Positions 35,104 to 40,638 of a stretch of 62,969 nucleotides of DNA are shown here, in pieces. Every line of letters starts with the position of its first letter. Within the stretch, counting starts at the first letter, position 1. The stretch comes from Halorubrum saccharovorum DSM 1137. Lineage in GTDB: Archaea; Halobacteriota; Halobacteria; Halobacteriales; Haloferacaceae. The translations under genes and the position numbers were made by a program. The notes under the pieces were generated by a model, which saw nothing but the letters and a program-made list of their open reading frames with translations, ran no database searches and had not been told where the DNA came from. The DNA is taken from the NCBI RefSeq assembly GCF_000337915.1, contig NZ_AOJE01000059.1, positions 1-62,969 of the forward strand, read 5' to 3'.

Positions 35104-37698
35104 TCAGTCCGCCTTCGCCTGCCAGTCGCGGACCGTGTCCGCGCCCACGCCGTCCACGTCGGCCGCCAGATCGTCCGGATCGATCGACTTGAGGTCGTCG
35201 ACGCCGTCGACGCCGGCGTCTTTCAGCTTCTCCGCGGTCTTCTCGCCGATCCCCTCGACGGTCTGGAGCTCCGAGCCCTCCTGCCGGGCGGTGAACTCCC
35301 GGTAGTTGCAGATTGGACAGCCGAGCTCCCACGGCTCGTCGCCGGAGTGGATCCGGAGGTGCGGGAGGTCGTGCTCCTCGCAGGTCTCGTCGGTGACCTC
35401 GATCTCGCCGCGCCGGGGGAGCGGGAGCGAGTAGTCGCAGTCGGGGTAGCGCGTGCAGCCGACGAGCCGGGAGCCGGAGCGGAGCCGTTTGATGGCCAGC
35501 TCTCCGCCGTGCTCCTCACCACATTCGGGACACGTTCCGATCACCTCGTCCTCCTGCTCGTCGGCCTCGTCGGCCTTACACTGCGGGCAGCCGTGGACGA
35601 ACGTCTTCCGGCCCGCGAGCATCTTCACCTGTCGGAGGTCGTGCTCCTCGCAGGTCTCGTCGAGGATGAGCGGCTTCCCCGTGGAGGGGAGCGGCAGGGT
35701 GTACTCGCAGTCGGGGTAGCCGTCGCAGCCGACGAAGTACGACCCCTGTCGGGACTTCCGGACGAGGAGGTCCTCGCCGCACTCGGGACAGGGGCCGAGC
35801 GTCTTGTCCGCCTTCAGCGACTTCTGGAGGTGGTCGCCGACCGCCTCGCGCGACTCGGTGAGGTCGTCGAACACGCGGTCGAGCAGCTCGCGGGACTCCT
35901 CGGTCACCTCCTCGTACTCCTTCTCGCCGGCCGCGATCGCCTGCATGTCTCGCTCCAGCTGGGCGGTCATCTCCTCGCTCACGATGTGCTCGGCGAACTC
36001 CTCGGCCGCCTCGACGACCGCCTCCGCGAGTCGGGTCGGCCGCGGCGGGTCGCTCTCGATGTAGTTGCGGTCGTACAGCTTCTCTAAGGTGCGGTGGCGG
36101 GTCGCCTTCGTGCCGACGCCGCGCTTCTCCATCTCCTCGATGAGCCGGGACTGGCCGTACCGGCGGGGGGGCTGGGTCTCCTTCGCGTCCGTCCGCCGGT
36201 CGGTGAGCGCGAGCGTCTCGCCGACCTCGACGTCGGGGACGATGCGCTCGTCGCTGGAGCGGTACGGGTACACGTCGTGGTAGCCGGCCTCCAACAGGCG
36301 CTTCCCGTTGGCCTTCAGCCGAAGCCCGCCGTCGGCGGCGAGGTCGCCGGGACCGGTCGCCTCGTCCGGGTCGCGGAGGGCGGCGAGCCCGTCGGCGCGC
36401 TCGGCGATCGGAGTCGCCTCGCCGTTCGCGAGCGCGACGACGCGGAGCCGCTCCCACGTCGCGGGCTCTGCGCAGGTCGCGAGGAAGCGGCGGACGATCA
36501 GCTCGTACACCTCCCACTCGTCCTCCGAGAGGTCCGAGGCCGATGGGAGCTCGCCGGTCGGGTGGATCGGCGGGTGGTCGGTGGTCTCCTCGTCGCCCTC
36601 GGTGGGCTCGATCTCCTCCCGGTCGAGGAGGCTCTTCGCGTCCGTCCCGAACGTCGAGGCGGCCGAGAGCTCCTCGATCAGCTCGCGGGGCTCTAAGTCG
36701 TCGGGGTACACCGTGTTGTCCGTCCGGGGATACGTGACGTAGCCGGCGGTGTACAGGTCCTCCGCGAGCGACATGGCGCGCTGCGCGGAGTAGCCGAGCG
36801 AGCCCGCGGCGCGGATGAACGCCGTGGTGTTGAACGGGGTCGGCGGGTCGTCGGTACGAGTGCGGCGGCGCACGTCGTCGACGACGGCATCCTCGGCCGC
36901 GTCGAGCGCCTCCGTGAGCACCTCGGCGGCGTCGCCGTCCCAGACGCGCTCGGCCTCGTTGCCCTCGTCGTTCAGGTAGAAGTATCGCGCCTCGAAGGGG
37001 TCGCCGCCGGACTTCGTCAGGTTCCCGTACAGCTCCCAGTAGGATTCGGGGTCGAACGCCTGGATCTCCCGTTCCCGGTCGACGATCAGCTTGAGGGTCG
37101 GCCCCTGCACCCGACCCACCGAGATGAAGTCGTCGCCGAGCTGGCGGGCGGAAAGCGAGAGGAACCTGGTGAGCGCCGCCCCCCACGTGAGATCGATCAC
37201 CTGTCGGGCCTCCCCGGCGGCCGCCAAGTCGAAGTCGAGCTCGTCGGGGTTCGCGAACGCCTCTCGCACCTCGTTCTCGGTGATCGACGAGAAGCGGACC
37301 CGGTCGATGGGAGCGTCCTCGTTCACCTCGCGCACCAGCTCGTACGCCTCCTTGCCGATCAGCTCGCCCTCGCGGTCGTAGTCGGTCGCGATGACGACCC
37401 GGGAGGCGTTGCGCGCGAGCTTGCGGAGCGCGGCGACGATCCCCTCCTGCGTGGGCTCTTTGGTCACCGGCGCGTCGATCAGCTCGACGGGCTCCACGTC
37501 GCGCCAGTCGTTGTACTCGGCGGGGAAGTCGACGCCGACGACGTGGCCCGAGAGGCCGATACAGCGCTTGCCGCCCCACTTGTACACGTTCACGTCGTTC
37601 TCCCGCTCCGCCGTCGCGGACTCGCCGCTCAGGATGTCGGCGATGCGACGCGCCGCGTTGTCCTTCTCCGTGATGATAAGCTCGGGGCCGCGACTCAT
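35104..37698 (-). CDS. topA: DNA topoisomerase I (type IA)
   Basis: 864 residues. The TOPRIM domain begins ELIITEKDNAARRIADILSG and carries VVIATDYDREGELIG. The catalytic Tyr lies in VTYPRTDN near residue 323. The C-terminal third holds zinc-ribbon repeats (CPECGEDLL...GCDGYPDC, CPQC, CPECGEEH...GCTRYPDC, CPICNY), and the last ~55 residues form helix-hairpin-helix repeats (VEGIGEKTAEKL, VDGVGADTVRDW). It relaxes negative supercoils. ATG 37698 is chosen by the TATA element CTTTAG (37725-37730) and the standard start SRGPELI; ATG 37752 is rejected. Confidence 0.93.
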   Translation of the reverse strand: MSRGPELIITEKDNAARRIADILSGESATAERENDVNVYKWGGKRCIGLSGHVVGVDFPAEYNDWRDVEPVELIDAPVTKEPTQEGIVAALRKLARNASRVVIATDYDREGELIGKEAYELVREVNEDAPIDRVRFSSITENEVREAFANPDELDFDLAAAGEARQVIDLTWGAALTRFLSLSARQLGDDFISVGRVQGPTLKLIVDREREIQAFDPESYWELYGNLTKSGGDPFEARYFYLNDEGNEAERVWDGDAAEVLTEALDAAEDAVVDDVRRRTRTDDPPTPFNTTAFIRAAGSLGYSAQRAMSLAEDLYTAGYVTYPRTDNTVYPDDLEPRELIEELSAASTFGTDAKSLLDREEIEPTEGDEETTDHPPIHPTGELPSASDLSEDEWEVYELIVRRFLATCAEPATWERLRVVALANGEATPIAERADGLAALRDPDEATGPGDLAADGGLRLKANGKRLLEAGYHDVYPYRSSDERIVPDVEVGETLALTDRRTDAKETQPPRRYGQSRLIEEMEKRGVGTKATRHRTLEKLYDRNYIESDPPRPTRLAEAVVEAAEEFAEHIVSEEMTAQLERDMQAIAAGEKEYEEVTEESRELLDRVFDDLTESREAVGDHLQKSLKADKTLGPCPECGEDLLVRKSRQGSYFVGCDGYPDCEYTLPLPSTGKPLILDETCEEHDLRQVKMLAGRKTFVHGCPQCKADEADEQEDEVIGTCPECGEEHGGELAIKRLRSGSRLVGCTRYPDCDYSLPLPRRGEIEVTDETCEEHDLPHLRIHSGDEPWELGCPICNYREFTARQEGSELQTVEGIGEKTAEKLKDAGVDGVDDLKSIDPDDLAADVDGVGADTVRDWQAKAD

Positions 37699-37724: not shown

Positions 37725-37768
37725 CTAAAGCTTTCGCGATGCCTGATCGCACGCACGCGCGTGCGATC
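37725..37768 (-). promoter_or_regulatory. topA promoter: TATA box plus alternating purine-pyrimidine inverted repeat
   Basis: TATA-like CTTTAG is at 37725-37730 on the minus strand. Fifteen bases further upstream lies a perfect 10-bp inverted repeat, arms GATCGCACGC (37745-37754) and GCGTGCGATC (37759-37768), four-base centre. Its core 37748-37765 is 18 bp of strictly alternating pyrimidine-purine, a Z-DNA-prone or cruciform-prone tract. The bop promoter of Halobacterium is known for a supercoiling-sensitive RY box, so a homeostatic role is plausible. Confidence 0.45.
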
Positions 37769-37887: not shown

Positions 37888-39378
37888 ATGTCGACCGACC
37901 TGTCCATCGACGCCGACTGGAGCGCGCAGTACATCGACGGCGAGTGGGTCGCCGCCGGCGACGACGAGACCATCGCCGTCGAGGACCCCTCGACGCGCGA
38001 GGTCGTCGCCGAGGTGCCGAGCGCGACCGAGGGCGACGTCGACGACGCCTACGAGGCCGCGGCCGCCGCACAGGAGGGGTGGGCCGAGGCCCCGCCGGCG
38101 CAGCGCTCGGCGGTCGTTCAGCAGTTCCTGCAGGCCTTACAGGAACACGACGAGGACGTGGTCGACCTGCTGGCCAACGAGGTCGGCGGCTCGGCGATCA
38201 TGGGCGAGACCTCGATCCAGATCGCGTCCGACCACGCCGGCGAGGCCGCGACGCTCCCGCGCCGGATGAAGGGCGAGCGCGCCGAGTCGAACATCCCCGG
38301 TAAAGAGAACGTCGTCGAGCGGGGGCCGAAGGGCGTGGTGACGGTGATCTCGCCGTGGAACTTCCCGCTGAACCTGAGCGCGCGAGCGGTCCTTCCCGCC
38401 ATCGCCGCCGGGAACGGCGTCGTCCTCAAGCCGTCGACGAACTCGCCGATCACGGGCGGGCTGCTGTTCGCGCGGCTCTTCGAGCAGACCGACCTCCCCG
38501 ACGGCGTGATCAACGTCGTCACCGGCCGCGGCTCCGAGATCGGCGACCGCGTCGCCAGCCACCCCGAGAGCGACGTGGTCTCCTTCACCGGCTCCACGTC
38601 GGTCGGCCGGCGCGTCGCGGGGCTCGCGGGCGAGAACCTCGCGGTGCCGGCGATGGAGCTCGGCGGCAACAACGCCCACGTCGTCACGAGCGACGCCGAC
38701 GTCGACCGCGCCGTCGACGCGGCGACGTTCGGCTCCTTCGTCCACCAGGGACAGGTGTGTATCTCGATCAACCGTCACGTCGTCCACGAGGACGTGTACG
38801 ACGAGTACGTCGCGAAGCTCACCGAGCGCGCCGAGGAGCTCCCGGTCGGGAGCGCCCACGAGCCCGACACCGTCGTCGGCCCCATCATCGACGAGTCTCA
38901 GCGCGACGAGATGCTGGGGTACGTCGACCGGACGATCGAGGCCGGCGCGACCCTCGAAACCGGCGGCGAGACTGCCGACATCGACGGCGTCGACGACTCG
39001 CTCGTCGTGAAGCCGACGGTCCTCTCGGGCGTCGCGAACGACATGGCCGCGGCGTGCAACGAGCACTTCGGCCCCATCGCGCCCGTCATCCCGTTCTCGG
39101 ACGTCGACGAGGCGGTCGCGATCGCCAACGGCACCGAGTACGGGCTCTCCGGCTCCGTCCACGCCGGCGACCTCGCGGTCGCCAAGGAGATCGCCGGCCG
39201 CATGGAGACCGGGAACGTCCACATCAACGACCAGCCGATCAACGACGAGGCGCACGTCCCGTTCAGCGGGATCGGCGCGTCGGGCGTCGGCGAGTACAAC
39301 AGCGACGCGTTCCTGCGAGAGATCACGGAGACGAAGTGGATCTCCGTCCAGCACGAGCCGCGCGAGTACCCGATCTGA
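37888..39378 (+). CDS. Aldehyde dehydrogenase (NAD(P)-dependent)
   Basis: 496 residues of the ALDH superfamily. Motifs seen: the N-terminal YIDGEWVAAGDDETIAVEDP, VTVISPWNFPLNLSARAVLP (Asn of the oxyanion hole), FTGSTSVGRRVAGLAG (cofactor), MELGGNNAHVV (general-base Glu) and HQGQVCISINRHVV with the catalytic Cys near 291. The LGGNN form, instead of the usual LGGKS, is shared with benzaldehyde/vanillin-type and AstD-type members, so an aromatic aldehyde is possible but unproven. ATG 37888 gives a nearly leaderless transcript; an upstream in-frame ATG (37822) adds a segment unlike the family. Confidence 0.88.
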   Translation: MSTDLSIDADWSAQYIDGEWVAAGDDETIAVEDPSTREVVAEVPSATEGDVDDAYEAAAAAQEGWAEAPPAQRSAVVQQFLQALQEHDEDVVDLLANEVGGSAIMGETSIQIASDHAGEAATLPRRMKGERAESNIPGKENVVERGPKGVVTVISPWNFPLNLSARAVLPAIAAGNGVVLKPSTNSPITGGLLFARLFEQTDLPDGVINVVTGRGSEIGDRVASHPESDVVSFTGSTSVGRRVAGLAGENLAVPAMELGGNNAHVVTSDADVDRAVDAATFGSFVHQGQVCISINRHVVHEDVYDEYVAKLTERAEELPVGSAHEPDTVVGPIIDESQRDEMLGYVDRTIEAGATLETGGETADIDGVDDSLVVKPTVLSGVANDMAAACNEHFGPIAPVIPFSDVDEAVAIANGTEYGLSGSVHAGDLAVAKEIAGRMETGNVHINDQPINDEAHVPFSGIGASGVGEYNSDAFLREITETKWISVQHEPREYPI

Positions 39379-39426
39379 GGGAATCTCTCGAATAGGCCGC
39401 CGAAAACGGCGATCGCGCCGCTTCCG

Positions 39427-40638
39427 CTACTCCTCGTCTCCCGTCTCGGCTGGCTCGGTCGGCACGCCGCCGAGGTTCCCCTCGTCGTCGAACCGCTTGG
39501 CGCGCAAAAAGCGGGTGCGGTAGCGGTTCGCCCCCTCCTTCGTGTCGGCCTCGCGGATCTCGTCGATCCGGCCGTCGGCGACCGCGTCGATGATGTCTTC
39601 GACCTGCTCCTTCTCGCTCGGCGTCAAGTCGAACTCGTAGGTGCGGGGCCGTTCGCTCTCCAGGCGGGTCCACTTGCGCGCGGCGCTCACGACGACCGAA
39701 CAGGGCTCGCGGCAGGGGAAGGCGCCGTCGCCGCCGTCGACATTGAGGTCGGTCTCGTCGTCGTACTCCCACTCGCGCCGTTTCAGACACTGCGAGTCGT
39801 CGCAGCACGCCTCCGCGACCCAGTCGACGTGCTCGTGGCCCTCGCCCCGGTCCCACGTCTTCACGACGCCGTAGATGCCGGACTGCCGCTCCATCGTCTC
39901 GCGCCAGTGGCTCACGTCGAGTTCCCCCTCGCGCTCCCGGTGCCAGTTGGCGACCGTCGCGGGGTAGACCGTTTCGACCGCCTCGTAGGCGTCACGCGGG
40001 CCGAGGTCGGGGAAGACCCAGCCGCCCGCGAGCGTCGGCGCGGTCTTGAGGGGGCGGTACCGCCCCTTCTCGTCGAGCTTGACGAGCTCTCGGGCGTCGA
40101 GCGGGTCGTCGTAGCGGTCGAGTTCGTCGACCGGAACGCCCGCGTCGTCGGCGTGGCGCACGTCGTACCGGCGCTCGCCGCGGTCGGTGACCGTGGCCGT
40201 TATCTTCAGCTCGCCCCACGCGCGCTCGATCCCCTCGGCGAGCGCGGCGTATCGAGTCGCCACCGTCGCGCCGTCGGCGTCCTCCAGCCAGCGCAGGAAC
40301 GCGCGGCGGGGGCCGAACTCGCCGACGACGCGCTCGAAGGCGTACCAGTCGGTGACCGCGGGAGCGCGCTCGTCGAGCGCCTCGTGGAGCTCGCGCTCGC
40401 TCACCCCGGTCTGGCGGTCGCCGTCGGCGGGGTCGAGGACGTAGCCCCCGTCGTCGCGCGCGACGCTGAACCCCTCGAAGCGGAGGGGGTCGTTCGGATC
40501 GCGCCCGTCGAGCGCGTCGAGCACCGCGTCGAAGGCGTCGCTCGGGAGGTCGATACTGGGGACCTCCGGGGCGGTCTCGGTGTCGTCGTCGGCCGCGGCG
40601 CCCTCGTCTGCGGTCGCGTCGGAAGTGGGTTCCGGCAC
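39427..40638 (-). CDS. DR2241 family protein, partner of CbiX
   Basis: 403 residues. The C-terminal ~170 residues carry a Cys cluster (EACCDDSQCLKRREWEYDD, then FPCREPCSVVV) resembling the DR2241 4Fe-4S domain known from fusions or neighbours of CbiX cobaltochelatases. The N-terminal half has a low-complexity Ala/Asp head and an alpha-rich domain (FGPRRAFLRWLEDADG near residue 112). It follows cbiX directly on the same strand, two bases after its stop. I infer that it aids cobalt insertion, for example by redox or delivery; no activity is established. Confidence 0.75.
   Translation of the reverse strand: MPEPTSDATADEGAAADDDTETAPEVPSIDLPSDAFDAVLDALDGRDPNDPLRFEGFSVARDDGGYVLDPADGDRQTGVSERELHEALDERAPAVTDWYAFERVVGEFGPRRAFLRWLEDADGATVATRYAALAEGIERAWGELKITATVTDRGERRYDVRHADDAGVPVDELDRYDDPLDARELVKLDEKGRYRPLKTAPTLAGGWVFPDLGPRDAYEAVETVYPATVANWHREREGELDVSHWRETMERQSGIYGVVKTWDRGEGHEHVDWVAEACCDDSQCLKRREWEYDDETDLNVDGGDGAFPCREPCSVVVSAARKWTRLESERPRTYEFDLTPSEKEQVEDIIDAVADGRIDEIREADTKEGANRYRTRFLRAKRFDDEGNLGGVPTEPAETGDEE

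Follow-up and report, generated by a model that had tools for sequence, protein, structure and literature searches.

An alternating purine-pyrimidine tract upstream of Halorubrum saccharovorum topA and a conserved alternating element at haloarchaeal gyrB promoters

Upstream of topA in Halorubrum saccharovorum DSM 1137, an unbroken purine-pyrimidine alternation of 18 bp was found that may act as a supercoiling-responsive cis-regulatory element of the topA promoter, kin in type to a stronger element at the BRE of gyrB. This reading is put forward tentatively, with confidence that falls somewhat short of even. The gyrB promoter carries a conserved version of the feature seen at topA. The perfect dyad that surrounds the alternation is incidental, and the alternation itself represents the far end, in this species, of a genuine tendency among topA promoters. 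What is observed directly is the sequence of the tracts, how far they are conserved, how enriched they are and how specific to particular genes.

The topA promoter and its dyad

The window, a 62,969-nt stretch of the H. saccharovorum DSM 1137 genome, encodes topA on the minus strand (35104..37698, ATG at 37698-37696). The product is an archaeal type IA DNA topoisomerase I with C-terminal zinc ribbons and HhH, and scored 980.8 bits against NF005555 (topoisomerase I), for which the cut-off is 635. The BRE/TATA of the gene, GAAAGCTTTA (37735-37726, minus strand), lies 37 nt before the ATG and recurs with near-identical sequence and equal spacing in nearly all family members. As originally predicted, a perfect inverted repeat with 10-bp arms lies beyond this TATA. 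It reads GATCGCACGC-ACGC-GCGTGCGATC at 37745-37768, with fully complementary arms (37745-37754 and 37759-37768) and a 4-nt spacer. The predicted inner pyrimidine-purine alternation was also confirmed; it is CGCACGCACGCGCGTGCG, runs without a break over 18 bp (37748-37765) and sits inside the dyad. Neither feature is assigned to a strand, and the BRE/TATA is 12 bp away from the tract, which lies upstream of it.

The dyad by itself is unsurprising, because dinucleotide shuffles of the window gave 3-6 comparable dyads (perfect arms of 10 bp, spacer at most 10; five shuffles), versus 2 observed. For the 18-bp alternation, 0.2 occurrences are expected per window in dinucleotide shuffles. YR runs of at least 18 bp occur three times in the entire 3.42-Mb genome, and the topA tract is the sole one of the three that is free of TA steps. 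The two remaining 18-bp alternating runs, at G000:C21:97726-97743 (L243) and G000:C43:57087-57104 (L244), both contain TA steps. No known structured RNA was found at the site of the tract; a lone miRNA model, below threshold and lying in the coding region of the aldehyde dehydrogenase, was judged to be a chance match.

The divergent neighbour of topA encodes an aldehyde dehydrogenase of the Aldedh family (37888..39378, plus strand; PF00171). It had been suggested that the tract could also affect the promoter of this gene, an effect that we reject because the promoter is ~95 bp from the tract and synteny is lacking: among the loci checked, an aldehyde dehydrogenase stands next to topA only in a six-species sub-clade and in Halorubrum alkaliphilum. 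Across Halorubrum topA loci, placement of this gene between topA and a DR2241-domain/Fer4_23 gene (37888-40638 in the window) is confined to the same species; many other Halorubrum have a DR2241-type gene directly upstream of topA.

Conservation upstream of topA across haloarchaea

For comparison of the dyad, topA upstream regions were anchored at the BRE. The set held 110 sequences: 50 of the 52 Halorubrum genomes contributed, 40 sequences came from elsewhere in the family and 20 from the order's other families. Conservation of the dyad among relatives was not borne out by this alignment, in which it was present in only one of the 110 regions, that of the window species, the second-longest perfect arms being 9 bp (L093). 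The five closest species, which also have the aldehyde dehydrogenase neighbour, lack the dyad; the arm at 37759-37768 differs, the topA-side arm is largely kept and the alternating runs are 10-14 bp. Across the six-species sub-clade, an alternating run of at least 10 bp is always present and stops at nearly the same point. Inverted repeats in the topA upstream regions showed no excess over control windows.

Alternation was scored over the 75 bp preceding the BRE, as the length of the longest alternating run. Controls were 316 intergenic windows together with radA and top6B promoters, a set that replaced a TATA-anchored scan of control promoters yielding too few controls. The mean longest run was 9.05 bp in 86 non-redundant topA promoters versus 6.22 bp in the 316 control intergenic windows, which were supplied by 20 genomes partly picked after the tracts had been noticed, the topA side taking in all topA sequences. 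Runs of at least 10 bp were found in 47% of the non-redundant topA promoters versus 7% of control windows. Each of three taxonomic groups showed a significant excess over controls; relative to dinucleotide shuffles of these regions, the excess was clear overall and in Halorubrum, and weaker in the other two groups. When each of 42 genera was represented by one value, the topA mean was 8.49 versus 6.32, and none of 20,000 draws was as high.

A base-level element accompanies this alternation. Order-wide, the topA upstream element reads CGCGCnnGCnnGCGATYT, and the topA-proximal half of the dyad is the window species' copy of it. Motif EM on the 86 non-redundant upstream regions returned CGCGCnnGCnnGCGATTT (13.4 bits, ~80% occupancy), most often located 4-20 bp ahead of the BRE; its form in Halorubrum is CGCGCGTGCGGGCGATC and in other families (GCGCACACC)CGCGCTGTCGTGCGATTT. 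The copy in the window, CGCGCGTGCGTGCGATCA (37744..37761, minus strand), was assigned by motif EM (13.5 log-odds, posterior 1.00) and by the genus alignment, and includes the topA-proximal dyad arm; the dyad is therefore built on an older promoter element. The motif has conserved non-alternating positions (CGATYT), and CGCACAC words at topA upstream regions are strand-biased. Outside Halorubrum, alternation reaches 30 bp past the base-conserved motif (8.12 vs 5.08, p=3e-10). A regulon search of the species' own genome with GTGCGNGCGATC gave 12 sites, among which topA was the sole promoter.

The alternating tract at topA is not universal. Most clade-1 Halorubrum have GCGGGCG as the topA motif, which interrupts the alternation, and in one large Halorubrum clade the alternation is lost and the base motif partly retained; many genera also have no tract. 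The expectation that alternation would be conserved despite divergent flanks is upheld in altered form: GC-rich alternation is enriched before topA across haloarchaea with differing flanks, but is lost in that clade and lacking from those genera.

The gyrB element

Sixty gyrB upstream regions were fetched, of which 58, from eight families of the order, could be parsed. In every one of the 58, the TATA is immediately preceded by a GC-rich alternating element, at or overlapping the BRE, with the consensus CGCnCGCGCGTRCG-N5-TTTA. An alternating run of at least 8 bp is present in 58/58 and one of at least 10 bp in 97%; among control promoters, runs of at least 10 bp were seen in 0/20 for radA and in 13% of 15 for top6B. 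The gyrB core is conserved at the base level and its spacing to the TATA is fixed. Position 8, at which CG would favour Z-DNA more, is T in 90%; position -1 is free, with the alternation broken there in about half of species. Non-consensus bases in the core comprise 42 transitions versus 8 transversions (flank, 295 vs 657), most being supplied by one clade-specific column.

The element is specific to gyrB. An exact search of 34 genomes with CGCGCGTRCG-N2-30-TTTAW gave 23 matches, 16 of them the gyrB promoter; the remaining 7 lie at unrelated genes and equal in number those of a reversed-pattern control, which is chance level. In the H. saccharovorum genome, the topA and gyrB tracts have CGCGCGTGCG in common, and of the 10 sites matching GCGTGCG-N2-31-TTTA, those at topA and gyrB are the only ones with an alternating tract before the TATA. 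A gyrB matrix scored topA upstream regions above controls in all groups; the topA and gyrB motifs are not identical in sequence outside Halorubrum.

Two further features of these promoters were noted. In many non-Halorubrum genomes, gyrB and top6B are divergent neighbours (G228:C4:194101-198417; also G127, G061, G068, G113, G191, G253 and G276); the two genes are separated in Halorubrum, where the gyrB element is nonetheless kept. Across haloarchaea, radA (L287-L306) and top6B (L257-L276) promoters have a conserved TTTCACTTTCAC motif immediately before the TATA, which looks like the site of a common regulator. A full-text literature search for the radA/top6B motif string found no paper containing it.

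Supercoiling and candidate readers of the tracts

Under the reading that we favour, the topA tract would be the local form of the upstream element found before topA in most haloarchaea examined, and chance would have extended it into a longer sequence that is both alternating and palindromic. GC-rich alternating tracts are expected to respond to supercoiling, leaving the B-form for Z-DNA under strong negative superhelicity. In the gyrB promoter the tract adjoins the TATA, and Z-DNA there would hinder binding of TFB/TBP and switch the gene off, and relaxation, for instance by novobiocin, would switch it on. The topA tract, placed 12 bp further upstream, would modulate transcription and not block it; that Z-DNA is what reads the tracts, and in which direction topA is affected, is what we infer. 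A simple energy model of naked DNA gave an estimated critical sigma for the B-Z transition of about -0.04 for both the window tract and the gyrB tracts; the control windows had a median of -0.058. In its broadest form, this reading would have haloarchaea sense their own supercoiling through Z-DNA-prone tracts in gyrB (at the BRE, in every family examined) and, more loosely, topA promoters, as a protein-independent, order-wide homeostat; we regard that version as rather unlikely.

A dedicated protein that binds the element and controls gyrB and topA, with the alternation as a by-product and the dyad of the window as a chance extra half-site, is a serious alternative, to which we would give appreciably less than an even chance. 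Base-level conservation at gyrB with fixed TATA spacing points this way, as do, at topA, the conservation of the CGATYT end and the strand bias of CGCACAC words, the match of the gyrB matrix to topA upstream regions in all groups, and the protein-site-like TTTCACTTTCAC motifs at a similar place in radA and top6B promoters. One or two targets per genome (34 genomes) would be unusual for a regulator, however; the topA and gyrB motifs differ in sequence outside Halorubrum, and the alternation at topA runs past the base-conserved part. A purely structural reader is disfavoured by the T that the gyrB core conserves and by its one free position, as well as by the conserved but non-alternating end of the topA motif and the strand-biased words within it, all of which fit a sequence-specific protein; the choice between Z-DNA and a protein as reader is therefore left near even. 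The broken alternation in most clade-1 Halorubrum and the many genera without an alternating topA tract also count against the favoured reading.

It is also conceivable, if improbable, that the long alternation and dyad are functionless here, the outcome of GC-/CpG-rich intergenic drift with selection acting on the promoter-proximal half only. Such drift would suit the absence of the dyad from the five closest relatives (runs of 10-14 bp), the chance expectation of perfect dyads of this size in the window and the large Halorubrum clade devoid of alternation. It sits poorly with the occurrence of just three such alternations in 3.42 Mb, with the retention, by six of six sub-clade species, of runs of at least 10 bp whose ends nearly coincide, and with an enrichment before topA that holds across genera. 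That the palindrome extrudes a cruciform under supercoiling, as was also proposed at the outset, is very improbable in spite of its perfect 10-bp arms and 4-nt loop: the dyad occurs in 1/110 topA upstream regions, these regions have no more inverted repeats than controls, and the critical sigma for extrusion, estimated at -0.050 to -0.066, is worse than the corresponding estimate of ~-0.04 for Z-DNA in the same tract.

In bacteria, topA responds to novobiocin in the opposite direction to the rise of type I topoisomerase in Halobacterium. Under this drug, Halobacterium gyrase, topoisomerase I and topoisomerase VI are all reported to rise (PMC9348778; PMC3184054), and Haloferax gyrB to be induced up to 20-fold (PMC9348778); a Haloferax gyrB promoter (L228) carries the alternating element. 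The novobiocin response of haloarchaeal gyrase was reported in 1991, according to the citation in PMC9348778. The accessible literature on this gyrase response names no cis-element for it. The published topoisomerase I response is an induction, at odds with a simple topA homeostat; the stimulation in Halobacterium argues against a homeostatic topA of the bacterial type, in which topA falls on relaxation. The original idea of a topA gene that senses the supercoiling it controls is partly supported, and better for gyrB than for topA: alternation is enriched at topA and a stronger element is present at gyrB, but type I topoisomerase is raised by novobiocin in Halobacterium.

Known systems offer partial parallels. 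The RY box of the Halobacterium bop promoter (Yang et al. 1996, J Bacteriol 178:840, as cited in PMC3184054) is likewise an alternating purine-pyrimidine promoter tract and reportedly responds to supercoiling and non-B-DNA. With uninterrupted alternations of about 10 bp or more at the promoter, the 18-bp topA tract and the gyrB tracts resemble supercoiling-sensitive promoters of this RY-box type. However, bop is not a topoisomerase gene, and the present tracts differ in being GC-rich and located upstream of or at the BRE, with that of gyrB conserved across families. Relaxation-stimulated gyrase and supercoiling-sensitive topA in Escherichia coli and Mycobacterium (PMC4770202) share with the haloarchaeal case the principle of topoisomerase genes governed by the topology they set. 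Sensing in Mycobacterium is ascribed to the -35/-10 spacing (PMC4770202), whereas the haloarchaeal candidate is a tract beside the archaeal BRE/TATA, and haloarchaeal topoisomerase I, unlike bacterial topA, is reportedly induced by novobiocin.

The gyrB-specific, order-wide alternating element at the BRE, with its looser counterpart at topA, provides a concrete candidate for a sensor of DNA topology in archaea. If Z-DNA is indeed the reader, these promoters would be a rare prokaryotic instance of left-handed DNA with a conserved physiological function.
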